From: Pseudomonadota bacterium
GTDB taxonomy: Bacteria > CALINM01
Assembly: GCA_026415985.1 (NCBI GenBank)
Contig: JAOAGA010000013.1
Span: 9,680-25,406, forward strand
Reading direction: 5' to 3'
Length of the DNA stretch: 15,727 bases
Positions 230 to 15,639 of the stretch are shown here, in pieces; position 1 is the stretch's first letter, and each line of letters starts with the position of its first letter. The notes beneath the pieces were generated by a model. The model worked only from the letters and a program-made list of their open reading frames with translations. It ran no database searches and was not told where the DNA came from. The position numbers and the translations under genes were made by a program.

Positions 230-1282
230 ATGATTGAAGATATAATAAGATCAATAACCCCTTTAGACGATAACCTTATCAAAAAAGCTTATGAAAGAAT
301 TGATAATTTGACAAAACCTAAAGGAAGCTTAGGAAGGCTTGAAGAGATTGCAGGTAAACTATATGCAATAAATGATGGCAGAATGCCGGTATCTTTTAAA
401 AAGGCAGTTGTAGTCTTTGCAAGCGACCACGGTATTACAGCACAGAACGTAAGCCCTTATCCAAATTATGTAACTTATCAGATGGTCTATAACTTTCTTA
501 GTGGTGGTGCAGGGATAAATGTTTTTGCAAGGCATAGCAGATCCGATGTTTTTGTTGTAGATGTGGGTGTTGATTATAATTTTGGTGAGACAAACAGACT
601 TATTGTAAAAAAGGTAGCAAAGGGAACCAAAGACTTCTCGAAAGAGCCTGCCATGACCATAGAAGAGGCTAAAAAATCTATTGTTGCGGGAATGGAGATG
701 GGAGAGGAGGTTTACAAAAGAGGTTATAATCTTGTGGGGACAGGTGAGATGGGTATAGGAAACACAACTCCAAGCACAGCAATAATGAGTGTAATAACGG
801 GAGTAAGTCTTGATCTGTTAACAGGAAGAGGAGCGGGTCTTGATGATGATGGGTTAAAAAGAAAAAAAGAGGTTATTGAAAAAGCGATTATTCTTCACAA
901 ACCTGTTAAAAATGATCCTCTTGATATATTGAGTAAGGTTGGTGGTTTTGAGATAGGGGCAATAGCGGGACTAATATTATATTGCAGCTCAAAGAAAATT
1001 CCTGTTGTGGTAGATGGGTTCATATCTTCCGCTGGTTTTTTAATTTCTTATCTTTTCAGCAAAGATGTAAAAGACTATGTATTTTTTGCCCACAGATCAA
1101 ATGAACAGGGACACAGAGTATTCTTTGATTTTATCGGGGAGAAGCCAGTCCTTGATTTGGATATGCGTCTTGGAGAAGGAACGGGATCAGCCCTTGCCTT
1201 TTTTATAATTGAGGCCTCTGCGAAGATGTTCTTGGAAATGGCCACCTTTGAATCAGCAAATATCTCAAGGGAAATGAAGTGA
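230..1282 (+). CDS. cobT: Nicotinate-nucleotide--dimethylbenzimidazole phosphoribosyltransferase CobT
   Basis: CobT transfers phosphoribose from nicotinate mononucleotide to 5,6-dimethylbenzimidazole or another lower-ligand base, giving the alpha-ribazole phosphate of the cobamide nucleotide loop. At 350 residues it has the usual length. Visible motifs are KPKGSLGRLE (29-38), FASDHGIT (63-70), SGGAGINVFAR (91-101), the phosphate-binding loop GEMGIGNTT (172-180) and GEGTGSALA (315-323), where Glu316 corresponds to the catalytic Glu317 of Salmonella CobT. The start aligns with the family N-terminus, although the only purine-rich stretch upstream (GGGG near 213-216) is too far away to be a good ribosome site. 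It lies 32 bases after cobU and overlaps cobS by 4 bases. A second, archaeal-type CobT lies at the end of the same operon. Confidence 0.96.
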   Translation: MIEDIIRSITPLDDNLIKKAYERIDNLTKPKGSLGRLEEIAGKLYAINDGRMPVSFKKAVVVFASDHGITAQNVSPYPNYVTYQMVYNFLSGGAGINVFARHSRSDVFVVDVGVDYNFGETNRLIVKKVAKGTKDFSKEPAMTIEEAKKSIVAGMEMGEEVYKRGYNLVGTGEMGIGNTTPSTAIMSVITGVSLDLLTGRGAGLDDDGLKRKKEVIEKAIILHKPVKNDPLDILSKVGGFEIGAIAGLILYCSSKKIPVVVDGFISSAGFLISYLFSKDVKDYVFFAHRSNEQGHRVFFDFIGEKPVLDLDMRLGEGTGSALAFFIIEASAKMFLEMATFESANISREMK

Positions 1283-2004
1283 GATATTTTTTCTGGGCAA
1301 TAAGTTTTATCTCAATTATACCAATCCCCAAAAAATATTTAGTTTTTGATGAAACGTTCTATAAATCCATAGGGTATTTTCCGATGGCAGGTGCCTTTTT
1401 AGGCTTGATTGCATATCTATTATTTCTTGTTTTCTCATTTTTTTTCTCCGTTAATCTCTCTCTTTTAATGTCAATTTTTTTGTATCATATATTAAATGGT
1501 GGTCTCCATTTAGACGGCTATGCTGATTTTTCCGATGCCTTTTTTGGTGCAAAAAAAAATAAAAGCAGATTTAAGGAAATTTTAAAAGACAGTCGTATAG
1601 GAACGATGGGGGCCTTCGCTCTGTTTTTTTATTTTTCGGTTGTTTTTAAGATTACAGATATATTAGTTCCTGACTTATATTTTTTTGTTTTTTTAGGAAT
1701 GGCGGGAAGAGTTACTATTGTAAACTGTGCCACTTTTTCTAAACCTCTTTTTAATGAAGGGTTAGGAAGGATCTTTATAGAAAAGGCGGGGTTACCGGAG
1801 TTTATTACAGGAAACCTCTTCTTTTTTATTTTGTCCTTAGTTATGGGGTGGAAGTATTTATTAACAGCATTGATTATTTTTATATTCTCTTTTATTTTTA
1901 AGTATATGATTTTAAGAAGTTATGAAGGATTTTCAGGTGATCTCTTTGGTGCGGGTTGTATATTTACAGAGATTATTGTTTTTTTGATGTTTATAAAAGG
2001 TTGA
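1279..2004 (+). CDS. cobS: Adenosylcobinamide-GDP ribazoletransferase CobS
   Basis: CobS is the integral membrane enzyme that joins AdoCbi-GDP (from CobU) to alpha-ribazole or its phosphate (from CobT), completing the cobamide. The 241-residue product is highly hydrophobic with several predicted membrane helices. It carries the CobS signature GGLHLDGYADFSDAF (74-88), with the Asp-rich Mg2+/pyrophosphate-binding residues Asp79 and Asp83, and RIGTMGAF (106-113). The start is GTG at 1279, overlapping the cobT stop as GTGA, with AAGGGA at 1268-1273 as ribosome site. That overlap suggests translational coupling. cobC begins 3 bases after the stop. Confidence 0.95.
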   Translation: MRYFFWAISFISIIPIPKKYLVFDETFYKSIGYFPMAGAFLGLIAYLLFLVFSFFFSVNLSLLMSIFLYHILNGGLHLDGYADFSDAFFGAKKNKSRFKEILKDSRIGTMGAFALFFYFSVVFKITDILVPDLYFFVFLGMAGRVTIVNCATFSKPLFNEGLGRIFIEKAGLPEFITGNLFFFILSLVMGWKYLLTALIIFIFSFIFKYMILRSYEGFSGDLFGAGCIFTEIIVFLMFIKG

Positions 2005-2007
2005 GAT

Positions 2008-2634
2008 ATGGTTGGTCACAGGGATTTATATCTGTTGAGACACGGAGAACTGACTAACTCTTCAGAAAATCTATTAAATGGTCAGAGTGATGTAAAGCTT
2101 TCCGAAAAGGGGTTTTTGGAAACAATAAGCTGGCTTCATTATTTTACTGACAAAGATATATCCTTAATCCTGTCTTCTGATCTTAAAAGAACCCTTAATC
2201 CTGCCATGTTTTTTTCAGAAAAACTTTGTTGTTCACACTTAGCTTTTAAAGAGCTCAGGGAGATAAGGGCAGGAAAATGGGAAGGCAAAACCTACGAAGA
2301 GATAATGAAACTTGATGGAGATTATTTGAAAAAACGATACGAAGATCCTGTAAATATGCCCTTCCCGGAAGGAGAATCTCTGAAAGATTTAAAAAAAAGG
2401 GTTATGGGAACACTAAAAAAATTTCTTAAAGAGAAAAAAAATATCCTTCTTATCAGCCATGCAGGGGTAATAAGGGTTATTGTTTTAACCCTTCTTGGCT
2501 TACCTTTGAAAAATTTTTTTAAGTTAAGTATTGATTATGCTGGTTTAAGCTTAATAAGACTTTTTGATGATGGTAATAATATTTTAGTTTTTCATAACAG
2601 GTTTTCAGGAAGGCAAGAATGGCAAAAGGAATAA
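2008..2634 (+). CDS. cobC: Alpha-ribazole phosphatase, histidine phosphatase superfamily
   Basis: This is a 208-residue histidine phosphatase. The RHGE motif (11-14) supplies the phosphate-accepting His12. Arg61 in SSDLKRT, Glu85 in LREIRAGKWEGK and His151 in LISHAGVIRV complete the classic active site. On its own the superfamily is broad (phosphoglycerate mutases, phosphatases). Its place directly after cobS and before a second CobT makes alpha-ribazole-5'-phosphate phosphatase (CobC) the natural assignment, removing the phosphate left by CobT. It starts 3 bases after cobS and its 3' end overlaps the next gene by 16 bases, so the two are likely translationally coupled. The CobC role is inferred from context; the fold is clear from sequence. 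Confidence 0.88.
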   Translation: MVGHRDLYLLRHGELTNSSENLLNGQSDVKLSEKGFLETISWLHYFTDKDISLILSSDLKRTLNPAMFFSEKLCCSHLAFKELREIRAGKWEGKTYEEIMKLDGDYLKKRYEDPVNMPFPEGESLKDLKKRVMGTLKKFLKEKKNILLISHAGVIRVIVLTLLGLPLKNFFKLSIDYAGLSLIRLFDDGNNILVFHNRFSGRQEWQKE

Positions 2635-3713
2635 TATCAGTAAGTGATTGTTTATACAGAGATAATTTTTTTAAAGAAATAAAAAAACGTGAAGGGCTTT
2701 TTATTTGCACAATAGCCACAACAAAAACCGCAGAAATTCCCGGCATTTCTGCTGCGGGTGCTACTCCAAGATTAAGAAGATATACCGCACAGGCTGATGT
2801 TGAGTATCTTTTTTATGAAAAGACCTACACAATAAAAGAAATACCCAAGAATCCATTAGGTCCGCCTTCCCCTGTTATAATAACAAAGGCTTGTCTTAAT
2901 CTTTCCGGAATACCTGTCTTCATAATAGATGCAGGCTGTCAGAAAAAGGCTAAAGTGCCTGCAATAATTATAAGACAGAAGGGGCTTGACTGCATTACCT
3001 CAGGAAAGGCCTTTGATAAAGCAGAAGATCTTTTTGATATATCCAAGAACCTTGCTTTCGAGTTTGCAAAACTTAACAGGTTTATTATATTAGGAGAGAG
3101 CGTGCCAGCAGGCACGACTACCGCTTTATCTTTGATGAGTTATTATGGCATATCGGCTCATAATAAGGTAAGTAGTAGTATAAAGGATAACGCCCACTCT
3201 TTAAAATCTGAAGTAGTAAAAACCGCCCATCTTAACTTCAAAAAAAGACATAAGGGTAAGTCCACCCCTTTTGATATTGTAAGTGGTATCGGCGATTCGA
3301 TGCAGATTGTAAATGGCACAATGGCATTATTTTTGGCCGATTATGTTCCTGTTATCCTTGCAGGAGGATCTCAGATGCTTGCCGTTGTTTGCTTTATGAT
3401 TAAACTTTCTGAATATTTAGGCAAAAAGGTCAGATGGGAAAATATATCTGTATGCACAACAAGATGGGTGTTGGAAGATAAAACTGCTGATTTCAGAGGT
3501 CTTTCAAAAGATGTTAAAAAGGATCTTCTGGTCCTTGCATCTGATATAAACTTTAGTGGATCTAAGTTCAAAGGTCTTCAGATGTATGAAGAAGGGCTTG
3601 TTAAAGAAGGAGTTGGTGCAGGTGGTATTGCGGGTGCAGGTTTTATAAGAAGGTATTTTGACCAAAACACACTTTTGGAAGAAATAGAAAGACTTTTCGG
3701 AAAAATGATATAA
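2619..3713 (+). CDS. Archaeal/cyanobacterial-type CobT-like phosphoribosyltransferase (TIGR00303/UPF0284 family)
   Basis: The 364-residue product resembles the UPF0284/TIGR00303 family represented by Methanocaldococcus MJ1598. I recall that members from methanogens and cyanobacteria were shown to be NaMN:base phosphoribosyltransferases acting in cobamide synthesis. Recognisable stretches are AEIPGISAAGATP (38-50), GPPSPVIITKA (81-91), GESVPAGTTTAL (159-170), which parallels the GEMGIGNTT loop of classical CobT, GIGDSMQIVNGTMA (223-236) and VILAGGSQM (245-253). ATG at 2619 is preceded by AGGAAGG (2607-2613) and lies inside the end of cobC. It is the last gene of the cob run and its stop sits one base from the glmS stop on the opposite strand. 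A second phosphoribosyltransferase beside a full-length CobT is unusual; it may handle a different lower-ligand base. Confidence 0.82.
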   Translation: MAKGIISVSDCLYRDNFFKEIKKREGLFICTIATTKTAEIPGISAAGATPRLRRYTAQADVEYLFYEKTYTIKEIPKNPLGPPSPVIITKACLNLSGIPVFIIDAGCQKKAKVPAIIIRQKGLDCITSGKAFDKAEDLFDISKNLAFEFAKLNRFIILGESVPAGTTTALSLMSYYGISAHNKVSSSIKDNAHSLKSEVVKTAHLNFKKRHKGKSTPFDIVSGIGDSMQIVNGTMALFLADYVPVILAGGSQMLAVVCFMIKLSEYLGKKVRWENISVCTTRWVLEDKTADFRGLSKDVKKDLLVLASDINFSGSKFKGLQMYEEGLVKEGVGAGGIAGAGFIRRYFDQNTLLEEIERLFGKMI

Positions 3714-7799: not shown

Positions 7800-7828
7800 T
7801 TGACGAAAAAATTTTTATCAGATATGTT
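7800..7828 (+). promoter_or_regulatory. Sigma70-type promoter of the small membrane protein cassette
   Basis: TTGACG (7800-7805) and TATGTT (7823-7828) are separated by exactly 17 bases. They match the housekeeping consensus at five and four of six positions. Predicted initiation near 7835 would give a short leader holding the AGAGGTG ribosome site of the first small gene. It is divergent from the trmI promoter, about 45 bases away. Confidence 0.5.
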
Positions 7829-7844
7829 TTTAATAGAGGTGAAT

Positions 7845-7952
7845 ATGAAAAAGCCAGCCCCCTTTTTAAGCTTATCCTGGTGGATTATACATTTGTTTGG
7901 AATAGCCTTTTTTTATACGGTTGGGGTTTTATTAAAAATTTATTGGGGGTAA
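7845..7952 (+). CDS. Small single-pass membrane protein A (35 aa), unknown function
   Basis: ATG 7845 to TAA 7950-7952 encodes 35 residues. AGAGGTG (7836-7842) provides a well-spaced ribosome site and a sigma70-type promoter lies just upstream, so expression is plausible despite the length. The N-terminus carries two lysines (KK at 2-3), then one hydrophobic helix from about residue 8 to 32. Within it Trp12, Ile14, His16, Ile20, Phe22 and Gly27 recur at the same positions in the next gene product, suggesting a tandem duplication. A buried His in a membrane helix could bind a metal or heme, but nothing shows that directly. I do not recognise the family by name. The next gene begins one base after its stop, and a four-helix membrane protein follows. 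Confidence 0.72.
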   Translation: MKKPAPFLSLSWWIIHLFGIAFFYTVGVLLKIYWG

Positions 7953-7953
7953 G

Positions 7954-8058
7954 ATGCTAAAATATTTTATGAGATATAAACCGGGATGGTTTATTCTTCA
8001 TGTCATAGCAATTTCTTTTACCATTTTTTTGGGTTACATTACAGATTTTTCAAGGTAG
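7954..8058 (+). CDS. Small single-pass membrane protein B (34 aa), paralogue of protein A
   Basis: ATG 7954 to TAG 8056-8058 encodes 34 residues. GGGGGTAAG (7945-7953) directly precedes the start and overlaps the end of gene A, so the two are probably coupled. A basic N-terminus is followed by the segment PGWFILHVIAI and a single membrane helix to about residue 29. Aligned without gaps to protein A it shares Met1, Lys3, Trp12, Ile14, His16, Ile20, Phe22 and Gly27. That is few residues, but the equal length and perfect register make shared ancestry likely. An internal ATG (codon 6) has no ribosome site of its own. Function is unknown; the conserved Trp and His suggest a helix-packing or ligand-binding role alongside proteins A and C. 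Confidence 0.72.
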   Translation: MLKYFMRYKPGWFILHVIAISFTIFLGYITDFSR

Positions 8059-8063
8059 AGCCT

Positions 8064-8468
8064 ATGAACAGAAAATTATTAATATTAGCCCTTTTCTTAT
8101 TTGCCATCTCGGGACTTATGTTACATTACAGAATCCACCCCTTTTTTGTTACAAGCAAGATAAACCCCGCTGAAAAGGTCTTTAGTCTTACCTATTTCTG
8201 GGCGAGCTTGTTACCACTTATTGATACAGTTTTGGTGACATTACTTTTTATGTCAAGAAAGACCGCGGTATACGCCTATCTTTTAAATGGACTAATTGTA
8301 ATTTATGGAACAGTTCTTATGTCTCATTTTAGTATTAACTATTTTATGGTAGCAAAAATACCACCCTCTGAGTGGATTTTAAAATCAACCCTTCCGGATA
8401 TTGGAATTGCCTTTGGTGATTTTTTTGTAGGAAAGGTTATTTATGATTCCTATATGGAAATAGCGTAA
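8064..8468 (+). CDS. Conserved-looking multi-pass membrane protein (134 aa), unknown function
   Basis: The frame is open from 7986, but ATG at 8064 is preferred: it has AAGGTAGAG just upstream (8053-8060) and falls 5 bases after gene B. The product has about four hydrophobic helices (roughly 4-22, 45-63, 70-87 and 108-127) and short polar loops. Histidines at 21 and 25 (LHYRIHPF) close helix 1 and His88 (SHFSI) closes helix 3, so they may lie on the same side of the membrane. I have a vague memory of similar uncharacterised membrane proteins in metal- and sulfur-respiring bacteria, but I cannot name the family. It is the last and largest of the three-gene cassette and ends 8 bases from the convergent rex stop. 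Function not assigned. Confidence 0.78.
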   Translation: MNRKLLILALFLFAISGLMLHYRIHPFFVTSKINPAEKVFSLTYFWASLLPLIDTVLVTLLFMSRKTAVYAYLLNGLIVIYGTVLMSHFSINYFMVAKIPPSEWILKSTLPDIGIAFGDFFVGKVIYDSYMEIA

Positions 8469-11833: not shown

Positions 11834-12025
11834 ATGTGTGAATCCAATGTTTTTATAAAGAGTGAAGAGAAGGAAGTTCTGTTTTATAAAGAGGCAGTAA
11901 AAATTATCCCTGTAGGGGAAGATGAGTTTGTTATCGAAGGGCTTTTAGGTGAGCCTCAGAAGATTAGCGGAAAGATAAAAGAGATTAACCTTATCGGTCA
12001 CAAGATAGTCTTCGAAAAAAAATAA
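11834..12025 (+). CDS. cooT: CooT-family small nickel-binding protein
   Basis: The 63-residue protein begins MCESNVFI and has the mixed beta pattern and the conserved tail IKEINLIGHKIVFE of the CooT family. In Rhodospirillum rubrum CooT is a dimer that binds one Ni(II) through Cys2 and takes part in nickel delivery to carbon monoxide dehydrogenase. The key Cys2 is present here. Homologues also occur away from CODH genes, as in this window, where their role is unknown. The start has no Shine-Dalgarno sequence but a good promoter ends 6 bases before it. The TPP riboswitch begins 7 bases after the stop, so cooT probably lies upstream of it in the same transcript. Family call good; nickel binding inferred from the family. 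Confidence 0.8.
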   Translation: MCESNVFIKSEEKEVLFYKEAVKIIPVGEDEFVIEGLLGEPQKISGKIKEINLIGHKIVFEKK

Positions 12026-12183: not shown

Positions 12184-13002
12184 ATGAAAATAAAAGTTAA
12201 CGAAAAAGAACTTTTTTTTCCGGAAGGAATGTCTGTTTTTGAAGTTAAAGATCTTATAAAACCATACGCAGATATAGTAATTTATAATGGTTTTCCTGTA
12301 AAAGATAATGTTTTACTTAAAGATGGCGATGAGGTAACTTTGATCAAAAGAGGTGAGATGCCATCAAAAGAAGAGCTGGAACATCTTCTTATCGCAAGGC
12401 ACACACCAAAGATTTATGAAAAACTTAAAAAAGGCGTTGTAGGAATAGCAGGAGTGGGAGGATTAGGCTCAAATGTTGCCATATCCCTTGCAAGAGTTGG
12501 TGTTGGTAAGCTGATAATAGCAGATTTTGATGTAGTTGAGCCTTCAAATCTGAACAGGCAACAATATTTTATAGATCAGTTGGGAAAAGAAAAGGTCTTT
12601 GCCTTGAAAGAAAATATCTCAAGGATCAATCCTTTTACAGAGGTTGTCGCTCATAATATCTTGCTTACAAAAGACAATATCCCTCAGATTTTTGCAGGTG
12701 CAACAGTAATAGTTGAGGCCTTTGACAGAGCGGATATGAAGGCTATGATTATTAACACAGTTTTTGAAAACATGGAGGGTGTTTTTGTAGTTTCAGCCTC
12801 CGGCTTGGCTGGATATGGACCAAACAATGATATTAAGACAAGAAAATTTTCCAAGAGATTGTTTATAGTTGGGGATCTCGTATCTGAGGCAAAGCCAGGA
12901 AGGGGGCTTATGGCACCTCGTGTTTCTATTGCTGCAGGTCATCAGGCAAATCAGGTTATAAGAATTCTTCTGAATGAACCCGATGAGGAGGATGAATTAT
13001 GA
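12184..13002 (+). CDS. thiF: ThiF-type sulfur carrier adenylyltransferase with ThiS-like N-terminal domain
   Basis: ThiF adenylates the C-terminal Gly of ThiS so that it can carry sulfur to the thiazole. Residues 1 to about 57 form a ThiS-like beta-grasp (KDGDEVTLIKRG), without the terminal Gly-Gly, so this part cannot itself be a sulfur carrier. The E1-like domain follows: GVVGIAGVGGLGSNVA (84-99, ATP loop), IIADFDVVEPSNLNRQQ (111-127) and a C-terminal APRVSIAAGHQANQ block. At 272 residues it resembles the ThiF family 2 type. It contains no cysteine at all, so it lacks both the zinc CxxC pairs and the Cys184 equivalent of E. coli ThiF. AAGG at 12167-12170 is 13 bases before the ATG, a poor ribosome site. 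The stop overlaps the next start (ATGA). Confidence 0.88.
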   Translation: MKIKVNEKELFFPEGMSVFEVKDLIKPYADIVIYNGFPVKDNVLLKDGDEVTLIKRGEMPSKEELEHLLIARHTPKIYEKLKKGVVGIAGVGGLGSNVAISLARVGVGKLIIADFDVVEPSNLNRQQYFIDQLGKEKVFALKENISRINPFTEVVAHNILLTKDNIPQIFAGATVIVEAFDRADMKAMIINTVFENMEGVFVVSASGLAGYGPNNDIKTRKFSKRLFIVGDLVSEAKPGRGLMAPRVSIAAGHQANQVIRILLNEPDEEDEL

Positions 13003-14315
13003 AAAGAGTATTAATCATTGCAGGCTCAGATTCTTCAGGCGGTGCAGGAATTCAGGCTGATATAAAAACTGCCTCTGCCATAGGGTTGTATCCTTTGACG
13101 GTTATTACTGCGGTTACATCTCAAAATACAAAGGGTGTTCACAGAGTTCATTTTGTTCCTGAACAGGATATTAAAGCACAACTTGATGCAATCACCGATG
13201 ACATAGAGTTTAATGTAGTAAAGATTGGAATGCTTGGAGACAGAGCTATTGCAAAGGTCGTGCTTGATTTTATTAAAAAATGCAATAAGCAGGTTATCCT
13301 TGACCCTGTTATGTACGCACAAAGCGGGGGGAAATTATCTGAAGAAAATATATTTAAAGATCTGATTAAATATTGTTCTCTTGTTACGCCTAACTATATG
13401 GAGGCCCAAAAAATAACCGGAAAAAAAATTAATTCTTTAAAGGATTTCAGGACCACTGCAAAAGAGATTGGCAAGATTGCAAAGAGAGTATTGGTAAAGG
13501 GGGGTGATTCTGATATTGATTATGACATTTATTATGACGGTAAGGATATTTATGAGTTTAAGATAGACAGGATCTCCACACAAAACACCCATGGTACGGG
13601 TTGTAGCCTTGCTACAGCTATAGCAGGCTATTTTGCATTAACAGGAGATTATCTTGAGGCTATCAAGAAAGCGAGAGAGTTTGTTTACTATTCTTTAAAA
13701 AATGGTATTCCCTTAGGAAGCAGGTTTGGAACAGTCGACCAGTTCGCCCTTTTAAGAAAGGATGCTCAAAGATATTTATGTATTAAAGAGCTTATCTCCG
13801 CCTATGAGCAGTTAAAGAATTTAAAAATTGGAAAAATACTTCCGGAAGTTCAGTCAAATCTCGTTTATTCTCTCTCTGATGCAGAGGATCTTTCAGATGT
13901 GGCAGGATTTAACGGAAGAATTATATCTGTTGGAGATGATATTTTTACTCCTTCTTTTCCTGTATTCGGTGGTTCAAAGCATATTGGCAGAGTTATTCTT
14001 TCTGCAAAAAGATTTTTCCCTCAACTAAACTCAGCCATGGCTCTTAGATATGAAAAAGCGGTTATTGAAAAAATAAAAAAATCTGGTTTCGTTGTAGGAT
14101 TTTTTGATAGGAAAAAAGAGCCAAAAGAAATCAGAGAGAAAGAGGGTAGCAGTTTAGACTGGGGTGTTACAACAGCCTGCAGGAAACTCAAAAACCCTCC
14201 TGACTTTATATATGATGAAGGTTCTGTCGGTAAGGAGCCGGTGATAAGGCTGTTTGGGAAAAATCCGTCAGATATTATTGAAAAAATTAGAAAAGTAAAG
14301 GAGTTTTATTTTTAA
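12999..14315 (+). CDS. thiD: ThiD-ThiN fusion: HMP/HMP-phosphate kinase with thiamin-phosphate synthase domain
   Basis: The N-terminal half (1 to about 255) is ThiD, which phosphorylates HMP to HMP-PP. Visible are IAGSDSSGGAGIQADIK (7-23), LDPVMYAQSG (101-110) and NTHGTGCSLATAIAGYF (196-212), with Cys202 as the usual catalytic residue. The C-terminal part (about 265-435) matches ThiN, which joins HMP-PP and thiazole phosphate to thiamin phosphate in place of ThiE; its signatures are FFDRKKEPKEIREKEGSSLD (368-387), WGV and DFIYDEGSVGKEP (402-414). The 438-residue length fits the known ThiDN architecture. It overlaps thiF by 4 bases (ATGA) and precedes the thiH-like gene by 4 bases. If ThiN is active, no separate thiE is needed. 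Confidence 0.93.
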   Translation: MKRVLIIAGSDSSGGAGIQADIKTASAIGLYPLTVITAVTSQNTKGVHRVHFVPEQDIKAQLDAITDDIEFNVVKIGMLGDRAIAKVVLDFIKKCNKQVILDPVMYAQSGGKLSEENIFKDLIKYCSLVTPNYMEAQKITGKKINSLKDFRTTAKEIGKIAKRVLVKGGDSDIDYDIYYDGKDIYEFKIDRISTQNTHGTGCSLATAIAGYFALTGDYLEAIKKAREFVYYSLKNGIPLGSRFGTVDQFALLRKDAQRYLCIKELISAYEQLKNLKIGKILPEVQSNLVYSLSDAEDLSDVAGFNGRIISVGDDIFTPSFPVFGGSKHIGRVILSAKRFFPQLNSAMALRYEKAVIEKIKKSGFVVGFFDRKKEPKEIREKEGSSLDWGVTTACRKLKNPPDFIYDEGSVGKEPVIRLFGKNPSDIIEKIRKVKEFYF

Positions 14316-14319
14316 TAGT

Positions 14320-15639
14320 ATGCTTGATTTTAAAACAATTGAAGAGCTTTCAAAGGAAAATCCTGCTGTTGGAAGCAAAACTTTAGAAAAGATTTTATCA
14401 AAGGCCTTAAACTTAGAGCCTCTTTCTTTGGAAGAGATCACCATTCTTCTTAATATTGATAAAGCAGAAGAACTTGAGTTGTTGAGAGATACCGCAGATA
14501 AAATCAAAAGGAAAATTTTTGGTAAAAGAATCGTTCTCTTTGCTCCATTATATCTGTCAAATGAATGTGTTAACAAATGTCTCTACTGCGGATTTCAAAA
14601 CGGCAACCCGGAGGAGAAAAGAAAGACCTTAACAAAAGAAGAGGCTCTGAAAGAAGCAAAATTTTTGGTAAGTAGGGGGTTTAAAAGGGCTTTACTTGTT
14701 CTTGCTGAAAACAAGTCTAAATGCGGGCTTGAATATATAAAATCTGTGGTCAGAGAGATATATAAAGAAACGGGTATGAGAATTTTACATATTAATTCTG
14801 CGCCGATGGAAGTTTATGAATTAAAGGAGTTGAAAAGAGAAGGACTCGGCGTTTTTCAGGTTTTCCAGGAAACCTATCATAAAGAAACCTATGAGAAACT
14901 ACATGTAAAAGGCAGGAAGGCAGATTTTAACTACAGGCTTACTTGTATGGATAGAGCAATAACTGCGGGATTTAAAGATGTGGGAATAGGATGTCTTTTA
15001 GGATTATATGATTACAGGTTTGATGTTCTCGCAACAATCTCTCATGCAAGATACCTCAAGGAAAGCTATGGAACCTATCCTCATACAATCTCTGTTCCGA
15101 GATTCAGATATGCAAAAGGTGCTGTTGTAGAAAAACCGCTATATGCGGTAGATGATTTTACCTTTAAGAAAATTGTTGCAGTTTATAGATTAGCAGTTCC
15201 TACCGCTGGTATTGTTATATCTACCAGAGAGCCAGCCTATTTAAGAGATGAGATTCTTTATTATGGTGCCTCACAGATTAGTGCAGAGTCAAAAACATCT
15301 CCCGGTGGTTATACAGATATTCTGGAGGAAGAAAAGGGGGCACAATTTAGTTTGAACGATAAAAGAAGCCTTGAAGAAGTAGTTATATCAATCCTTGAAA
15401 GGGGGTTTTTACCAAGTTTCTGTACCGCCTGCTATGGCAAGGGAAGGGTAGGTGAACACTTTCATCGTTTGGCAGAAGAGGAAGTTATAAAAGATTTCTG
15501 TGAAAAGAATGCAATTTCTACTTTTTTAGAATATTTATCAGACATAAAAGATAAAAGCTTAAGAGAAAAAATTACACGGTTTTATGAAAAACTTATCGAT
15601 GATAAAAGCACAAATACAGAGAAAGGTGCCCTTATATGA
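14320..15639 (+). CDS. thiH: HydG-like radical SAM tyrosine lyase in the thiamin operon (ThiH role inferred)
   Basis: ThiH and HydG are related radical SAM enzymes that split tyrosine into p-cresol and dehydroglycine. ThiH feeds this to ThiG; HydG goes on to make CO and cyanide for the [FeFe]-hydrogenase cofactor. The radical SAM triad is Cys83, Cys87 and Cys90 (CVNKCLYC). The rest reads like HydG: VFQVFQETYHKETYEKLH (178-195), DVGIGCLLGLYDYRFDVL (220-237), PHTISVPRFR (254-263) and SFCTACYGKGRVGEHF (366-381). The C-terminal cysteines 368, 371 and 394 form the CX2CX22C motif of the HydG auxiliary cluster, absent from ordinary ThiH. At 439 residues it is longer than typical ThiH (about 370) and near HydG (about 470). 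It follows thiDN by 4 bases, and overlaps thiS by 4, which favours a thiazole role. Confidence 0.85.
   Translation: MLDFKTIEELSKENPAVGSKTLEKILSKALNLEPLSLEEITILLNIDKAEELELLRDTADKIKRKIFGKRIVLFAPLYLSNECVNKCLYCGFQNGNPEEKRKTLTKEEALKEAKFLVSRGFKRALLVLAENKSKCGLEYIKSVVREIYKETGMRILHINSAPMEVYELKELKREGLGVFQVFQETYHKETYEKLHVKGRKADFNYRLTCMDRAITAGFKDVGIGCLLGLYDYRFDVLATISHARYLKESYGTYPHTISVPRFRYAKGAVVEKPLYAVDDFTFKKIVAVYRLAVPTAGIVISTREPAYLRDEILYYGASQISAESKTSPGGYTDILEEEKGAQFSLNDKRSLEEVVISILERGFLPSFCTACYGKGRVGEHFHRLAEEEVIKDFCEKNAISTFLEYLSDIKDKSLREKITRFYEKLIDDKSTNTEKGALI

Follow-up and report, generated by a model that had tools for sequence, protein, structure and literature searches.

Organization of the A-B-C cassette

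The stretch of DNA that was analysed, 15,727 nucleotides long and called the window here, contains on its plus strand a cassette of three small genes coding for membrane proteins. Gene A (positions 7845 to 7952) encodes a peptide of 35 residues with one membrane helix and a WWxxH motif, similar to the alpha subunit of cytochrome b559 (PsbE). Gene B (7954 to 8058) encodes 34 residues, again with a single membrane helix, with a WxxxH motif and a similarity to the beta subunit of cytochrome b559 (PsbF), while gene C (8064 to 8468) encodes a protein of 134 residues with four membrane helices. The tight packing given in the preliminary description was found again, the intergenic gaps being of 1 base between A and B and of 5 bases between B and C. 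A Shine-Dalgarno-like AGAGGTG, read from the sequence, precedes the ATG of A (7836 to 7842, plus strand), and weak promoter-like hexamers, TTGACG and TATGTT separated by 17 bases, are located further upstream on the same strand (7800 to 7828). The cassette had been said to possess its own promoter-like sequence: a -35/-10-like site is indeed present 5' of A, but the number of such sites is not above that of shuffled sequence (2 compared to 3.5 expected).

The left neighbour of the cassette codes for a TrmI/GCD14-type tRNA methyltransferase and the right one for a Rex-like repressor, followed by ATP synthase genes. As both flanking genes are on the opposite strand, the cassette is a self-contained unit in the window.

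Elsewhere in the window, the region from 230 to 3713 was read as cobalamin genes, namely a CobT-like gene (230 to 1282), a CobS-like gene, a phosphatase gene and a second CobT-like gene (2619 to 3713), whose product of 364 residues has no Pfam match at an E-value of 0.001. A CooT-type nickel-binding accessory protein (PF10133, E = 1.9e-15) is encoded at 11834 to 12025, between the gene of a PAP2 phosphatase and thiamine-related genes. The latter form a compact cluster from 12184 to 15639, with a ThiS-like/ThiF fusion recognized by Pfam, then an apparent ThiD-ThiN fusion and a ThiH-like radical SAM protein.

Recurrence and distribution of the trio

No described family was found for the A-B-C trio, A, B and C each being without a family in Pfam, NCBIfam or PHROGs, and the search for a phage origin of the cassette found nothing among 50,697 phage records. 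With C as the query, the trio was recovered in Thermodesulfovibrio and other Nitrospirota as well as in a Rokubacteria MAG. By count, 17 of 295 Nitrospirota genomes carry it, as do 13 of the 386 genomes taken across bacterial families and 3 of the 4 genomes of a small phylum, a patchy distribution across bacteria.

Recurrence of the trio and its intactness in close relatives had been proposed as checks in the preliminary description. A and B were found beside C in 30 of the 31 fully read C loci, and the gene order A-B-C is constant in the loci read. The sole C locus of the 31 without A and B, L064, is also the only one in which C has no His at position 88; at L067, where C is partial, no A or B was detected by pattern. 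As a control for circularity, the B profile alone was searched over the same 386 genomes and gave 12 strong matches (E < 1e-12), all of them in C-bearing genomes, with no strong match at this threshold in any genome without C. Weak B-profile matches in genomes G625 and G513, as well as a PF00283 match with a stop in G425, were inspected and left out of the count. The recurrence of the trio is not chance. Within the same family, the comparison comprised two other genomes (loci L002/L065 and L003/L066), and the trio is whole in both of them, as it is in Nitrospirota. In L002 it is carried by the minus strand, with A at 2016 to 2126, B at 1914 to 2012 and C at 1486 to 1914, while in L003 the order is that of the window.

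The C homologue without A or B (L064/L040, genome G419, positions 3082 to 3483) presents a Trp in place of His88. It is located about 1.5 kb upstream of the gene of a ferric-reductase/NADPH-oxidase-like flavocytochrome (PF01794 with FAD/NAD domains).

Peptides A and B are paralogues with a conserved histidine

As described previously for the window, the alignment of A with B needs no gaps, and the two have in common Met1, Lys3, Trp12, Ile14, His16, Ile20, Phe22 and Gly27. The profile-profile comparison of the A family with the B family gave a probability of 97.7 and an E-value of 1.4e-12, and A and B are therefore true paralogues. Among 30 sequences of each family, the invariant positions are Trp13, His16, Tyr24 and Gly27 in A (window numbering, corresponding to Trp12, His15, Tyr23 and Gly26 of the trimmed alignment) and Trp12, His16 and Phe32 in B, in which Gly11, Leu15, Leu26 and Gly27 are almost invariant. 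Trp12 and His16, on whose conservation the preliminary description had relied, are conserved in A and B across the recurring trios, Nitrospirota included; this conservation is partly built in, since A and B were initially gathered by a W-x-x-x-H pattern, with which only two C loci (L064 and L067) gave none. The N-terminal side of the peptides is positively charged, with means of +2.1 and +2.8, which according to the positive-inside rule would place His16 of both peptides near the cytoplasmic face.

A second His at position H+12, found in many A and B peptides of Nitrospirota, gives a spacing reminiscent of diheme proteins and had raised the idea of two hemes. Of the 30 sequences of each family, however, this residue is present in 14 for A and 16 for B, in both peptides in 10 cases and in neither in 10, and it is absent in the window. 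Being patchy and missing in the window, it is not essential, and the two-heme idea was rejected.

Separately, genome G625 contains a lone frame of 97 residues (L110, 1441 to 1731, minus strand) with a helix resembling those of b559 and of A and B (LKLGWWAVHAIAISLVFTWGYRKGR), which matches the B profile with an E-value of 0.0013. No match to the C profile was obtained in this genome, and the frame may represent a relative consisting of one peptide, or a chance match.

Protein C

From the sequence of C, about four helices with His21, His25 and His88 near helix ends had been proposed. The AlphaFold2 model, although of low confidence (mean pLDDT 67, pTM 0.44), agrees with this reading and presents helices at residues 3-24, 42-63, 68-97 and 110-133. 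Across 31 sequences, His21, His25, Phe62, Asn75 and Met86 are invariant, and His88 is found in 30 of the 31. By the positive-inside rule the three His residues are predicted to be near the periplasmic face, opposite to His16 of A and B; with the two sets predicted on opposite faces of the membrane, they would not constitute a single shared site. A Foldseek search with the model, which is too uncertain to rely on, gave no match below an E-value of 0.6. The identification of C as MauE was dropped, the match being weak (E = 0.14) and below the cut-off, and the PDB matches of the C profile (CD3 zeta and other helices) were dismissed as chance.

Gene fusions and gene neighbours

In four distant genomes (L060-L063, in G614, G635, G037 and G358 respectively), C and A form a single protein, the A helix being attached at the C-terminal end of C, with B as the next gene, and this speaks for a joint action of A and C. 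These C-A fusion proteins have no significant Pfam match to membrane cytochrome families. In three genomes of another phylum (L058, L059 and L088), A is extended at its N-terminus by a rubredoxin domain of the rubrerythrin type, PF21349, which passed the Pfam cut-off in the loci tested, L058 (E = 6.5e-9) and L088 (E = 1.7e-7). This second fusion argues for an electron exchange between the complex and an iron centre of rubredoxin type, located N-terminally of the A helix.

The gene of a Fe-type superoxide dismutase adjoins the cassette in L009, L052 and L059, and that of a rubrerythrin in L006, L046 and L051, with a distance from C or A of no more than about 300 bases in each of the six; the loci belong to two phyla, and the Nitrospirota cases are not mutually independent. 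In L052, the superoxide dismutase gene is followed by two rubrerythrin-type genes in tandem. A superoxide reductase is encoded about 2 kb from the cassette in L058, and a ferritin near the cassette in L043. At most loci, the window included, no oxidative-stress gene is next door, and no flanking gene is common to the majority of loci as a conserved operon partner.

A gene coding for a protein of 148 residues and of unknown family (MPHxGLMxxxELGPE...) is located directly 3' of C in three Nitrospirota genomes (L004 8438-8884, L005 8452-8898 and L009 8407-8853), with a homologue elsewhere in L045 (493-942). A protein read as YyaL-type (thioredoxin-domain, DUF255-like) is encoded a few kb or less from the cassette in L009, L046, L052 and L065, the last being the same-family relative G001.

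Genes of molybdopterin oxidoreductases (PF00174) are located directly upstream of A, in the same orientation, in L043 (two genes) and L048. This arrangement resembles that of MsrP/MsrQ and sulfite-oxidase-like systems, and A-B-C might then be a quinol dehydrogenase feeding a periplasmic molybdenum enzyme, in the way that MsrQ, a heme protein, serves MsrP, a role with which the conserved His residues of C on the predicted periplasmic side would be consistent. However, the PF00174 link is rare, being seen in only 2 of about 31 loci and absent around the window and in the other phyla, A, B and C have no match to the ferric-reductase-like membrane family PF01794, and the rubredoxin fusion indicates a cytoplasmic partner. 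We consider such a role unlikely.

Resemblance of A and B to cytochrome b559

Over matched helices of only 20-25 residues and with modest E-values, the B profile searched against all PDB chains gave 22 matches up to an E-value of 10, of which all 22 are cytochrome b559 beta (PsbF), the best having an E-value of 0.028. In the same way, the single B peptide of L041 matched PsbF in 22 of 22 cases, while the A profile gave two matches, one of them being b559 alpha (E = 1.9). PsbE and PsbF sequences verified against PDB chains or taken from cyanobacterial loci were then compared with both families by hhalign, which gave 71 for B-PsbF and 72 for A-PsbE and lower values for the crossed pairs (50 and 59); the reference pairs A-B and PsbE-PsbF reached 97.7 and 89.9. 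None of the proteins in ten cassette genomes exceeded the cut-off of PF00283, and A and B of the window have no Pfam match. Formal membership of the b559 family therefore fails on this test, although the likeness, which supports a relationship but falls short of proving homology, seems specific.

Cytochrome b559 is a heterodimer bridged by a heme near the cytoplasmic side (PMC9214863). The resemblance extends to the adjacency of the two small genes in alpha-beta order, with A and B a single base apart in the window, and to the architecture of the subunits, each consisting of one helix with one conserved His, the invariant His16 in A and B, near its N-terminal end, which in A and B is predicted to be cytoplasmic. 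In A and PsbE a Trp occupies H-3, in B and PsbF it occupies H-4, and all four have a Gly at H+11. Both systems are also found in a redox or superoxide setting, superoxide oxidase and reductase activities having been reported for b559 (PMC9214863). In contrast, A does not have the long C-terminal tail of PsbE, and the cassette adds the four-helix partner C, which was not found in 79 cyanobacterial genomes (two weak matches, one with stops). Cytochrome b559 is part of photosystem II, every oxygenic phototroph having it but no anoxygenic reaction centre (PMC9214863, PMC4709441), whereas the 31 cassette genomes contain no PF00124 reaction-centre protein, compared to five in the control cyanobacterium G622. 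The sequence comparisons point to a b559-like pair, a true relative or only similar in appearance, in several groups of non-photosynthetic bacteria, joined to a third protein, C. No report of b559-like proteins in non-phototrophs was found in the full-text literature, which is weak evidence, as subscription papers and preprints were mostly beyond reach.

Short helices clamping a heme probably have few sequence solutions, and the b559 likeness could be convergent, with A and B binding heme in a complex that serves another membrane enzyme as a sensor, assembly factor or stabilizer. Most organisms tested need cytochrome b559 itself to assemble photosystem II, its function being described as unclear (PMC9214863), and the cassette has no fixed enzyme neighbour. 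The shuffled controls weigh against convergence for part of the comparisons. Column-shuffled PsbF (0/300) and PsbE (0/300) never reached the score of the best-matching family, A or B. When the profiles of the cassette were shuffled, the score of B against PsbF was reached in 0/400 cases, and in 3/400 with the W, H and G columns fixed, and that of A against PsbF in 0/400 cases under both regimes, so that these two matches exceed the motif. The score of A against PsbE was reached in 1/400 cases, and in 25/400 with W, H and G fixed; this match owes largely to the W/W/H/G motif. Considering also that the fusion with rubredoxin and the neighbouring superoxide-defence genes speak for a flow of electrons, we judge a sensor or assembly role with a convergent likeness to be improbable. 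It is less probable still that the ligand of A/B and C is a metal or that they have no ligand at all, with structural or quinone-binding His residues and W-H-G as a generic membrane-interface feature (a Trp is near the interface in many single-helix proteins), since all collected sequences keep His16 of A/B and His21 and His25 of C, and the B profile matches only b559 among PDB chains and no other single-helix proteins.

In cyanobacteria, rubA adjoins psbEFLJ (PMC3772215), and we confirmed its position beside the psbE/psbF cluster in the cyanobacterial locus L082. L058, L059 and L088 resemble this RubA/RBD1 system of photosystem II assembly in having a rubredoxin-like domain fused to a membrane helix beside a b559-like pair. 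The likeness is limited to these three loci, A of the window having no rubredoxin domain, and the fused helix is A itself, with its WWxxH, whereas the helix of RubA, inspected in L082, has neither W nor His; moreover, the rubredoxin domain of the cassette is of the rubrerythrin type. The superoxide oxidase SOO/CybB has been described as a minimal membrane heme protein removing superoxide (PMC11869295). This cytochrome b561 is a four-helix bundle, and C likewise has four helices, but A, B, C and the C-A fusions have no significant match to b561-family Pfam models, and C has no PDB relative by sequence or fold.

Proposed function and significance

The co-occurrence of the three genes, their kept order, the C-A fusions, the conserved His residues and the likeness of A and B to the heme-bridging helices of cytochrome b559 support the small heteromeric membrane complex, with possible heme or metal binding through its His residues, put forward in the preliminary description, which had missed the specific b559 likeness, the rubredoxin fusion and the link to superoxide and peroxide defence. 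We consider it probable that A-B-C is a small membrane complex in which His16 of A and of B clamp one b-type heme and C provides an anchor and a second site, with electron transfer serving oxygen and superoxide defence. A and B, as single-helix peptides, would pair as a heterodimer and hold the heme between the two His16 residues near the cytoplasmic face, in the fashion of PsbE/PsbF. C would be the four-helix partner that holds the A/B pair, and its His21, His25 and His88 would form the second site on the predicted periplasmic face. Single electrons would then pass between the membrane, i.e. the quinone pool or the outer site of C, and cytoplasmic acceptors, for which rubredoxin/rubrerythrin or superoxide itself are candidates, and the complex would help anaerobic or microaerophilic bacteria in their defence against oxygen and superoxide. 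The analysis shows the genes with their conservation, co-occurrence, fusions, neighbours and sequence likeness to b559; from these we infer the heme binding, the stoichiometry, the topology, the direction of electron flow and the physiological role.

The profile comparisons indicate that the A/B core may be related to cytochrome b559. Common descent of A/B and PsbE/PsbF is a possibility that we regard with some doubt. On this tentative reading, A/B would be true cousins of PsbE/PsbF, the heme-bridged pair would be ancestral in an oxygen/superoxide-defence complex of non-phototrophs, together with C (and rubredoxin), and photosystem II would have recruited the pair plus a rubredoxin-membrane protein at the rise of oxygen evolution. 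Alternatively, the non-phototrophs would have taken the pair from phototrophs, which is the less likely direction of transfer.

The genes of A, B and C are too small for good annotation, and none of them has a family model. A b559-like pair without any reaction centre would offer a simpler system for probing the role of the heme, and the A/B pair is a candidate outgroup for the origin of cytochrome b559, the context of the cassette suggesting that this cytochrome first served in the chemistry of superoxide or rubredoxin.
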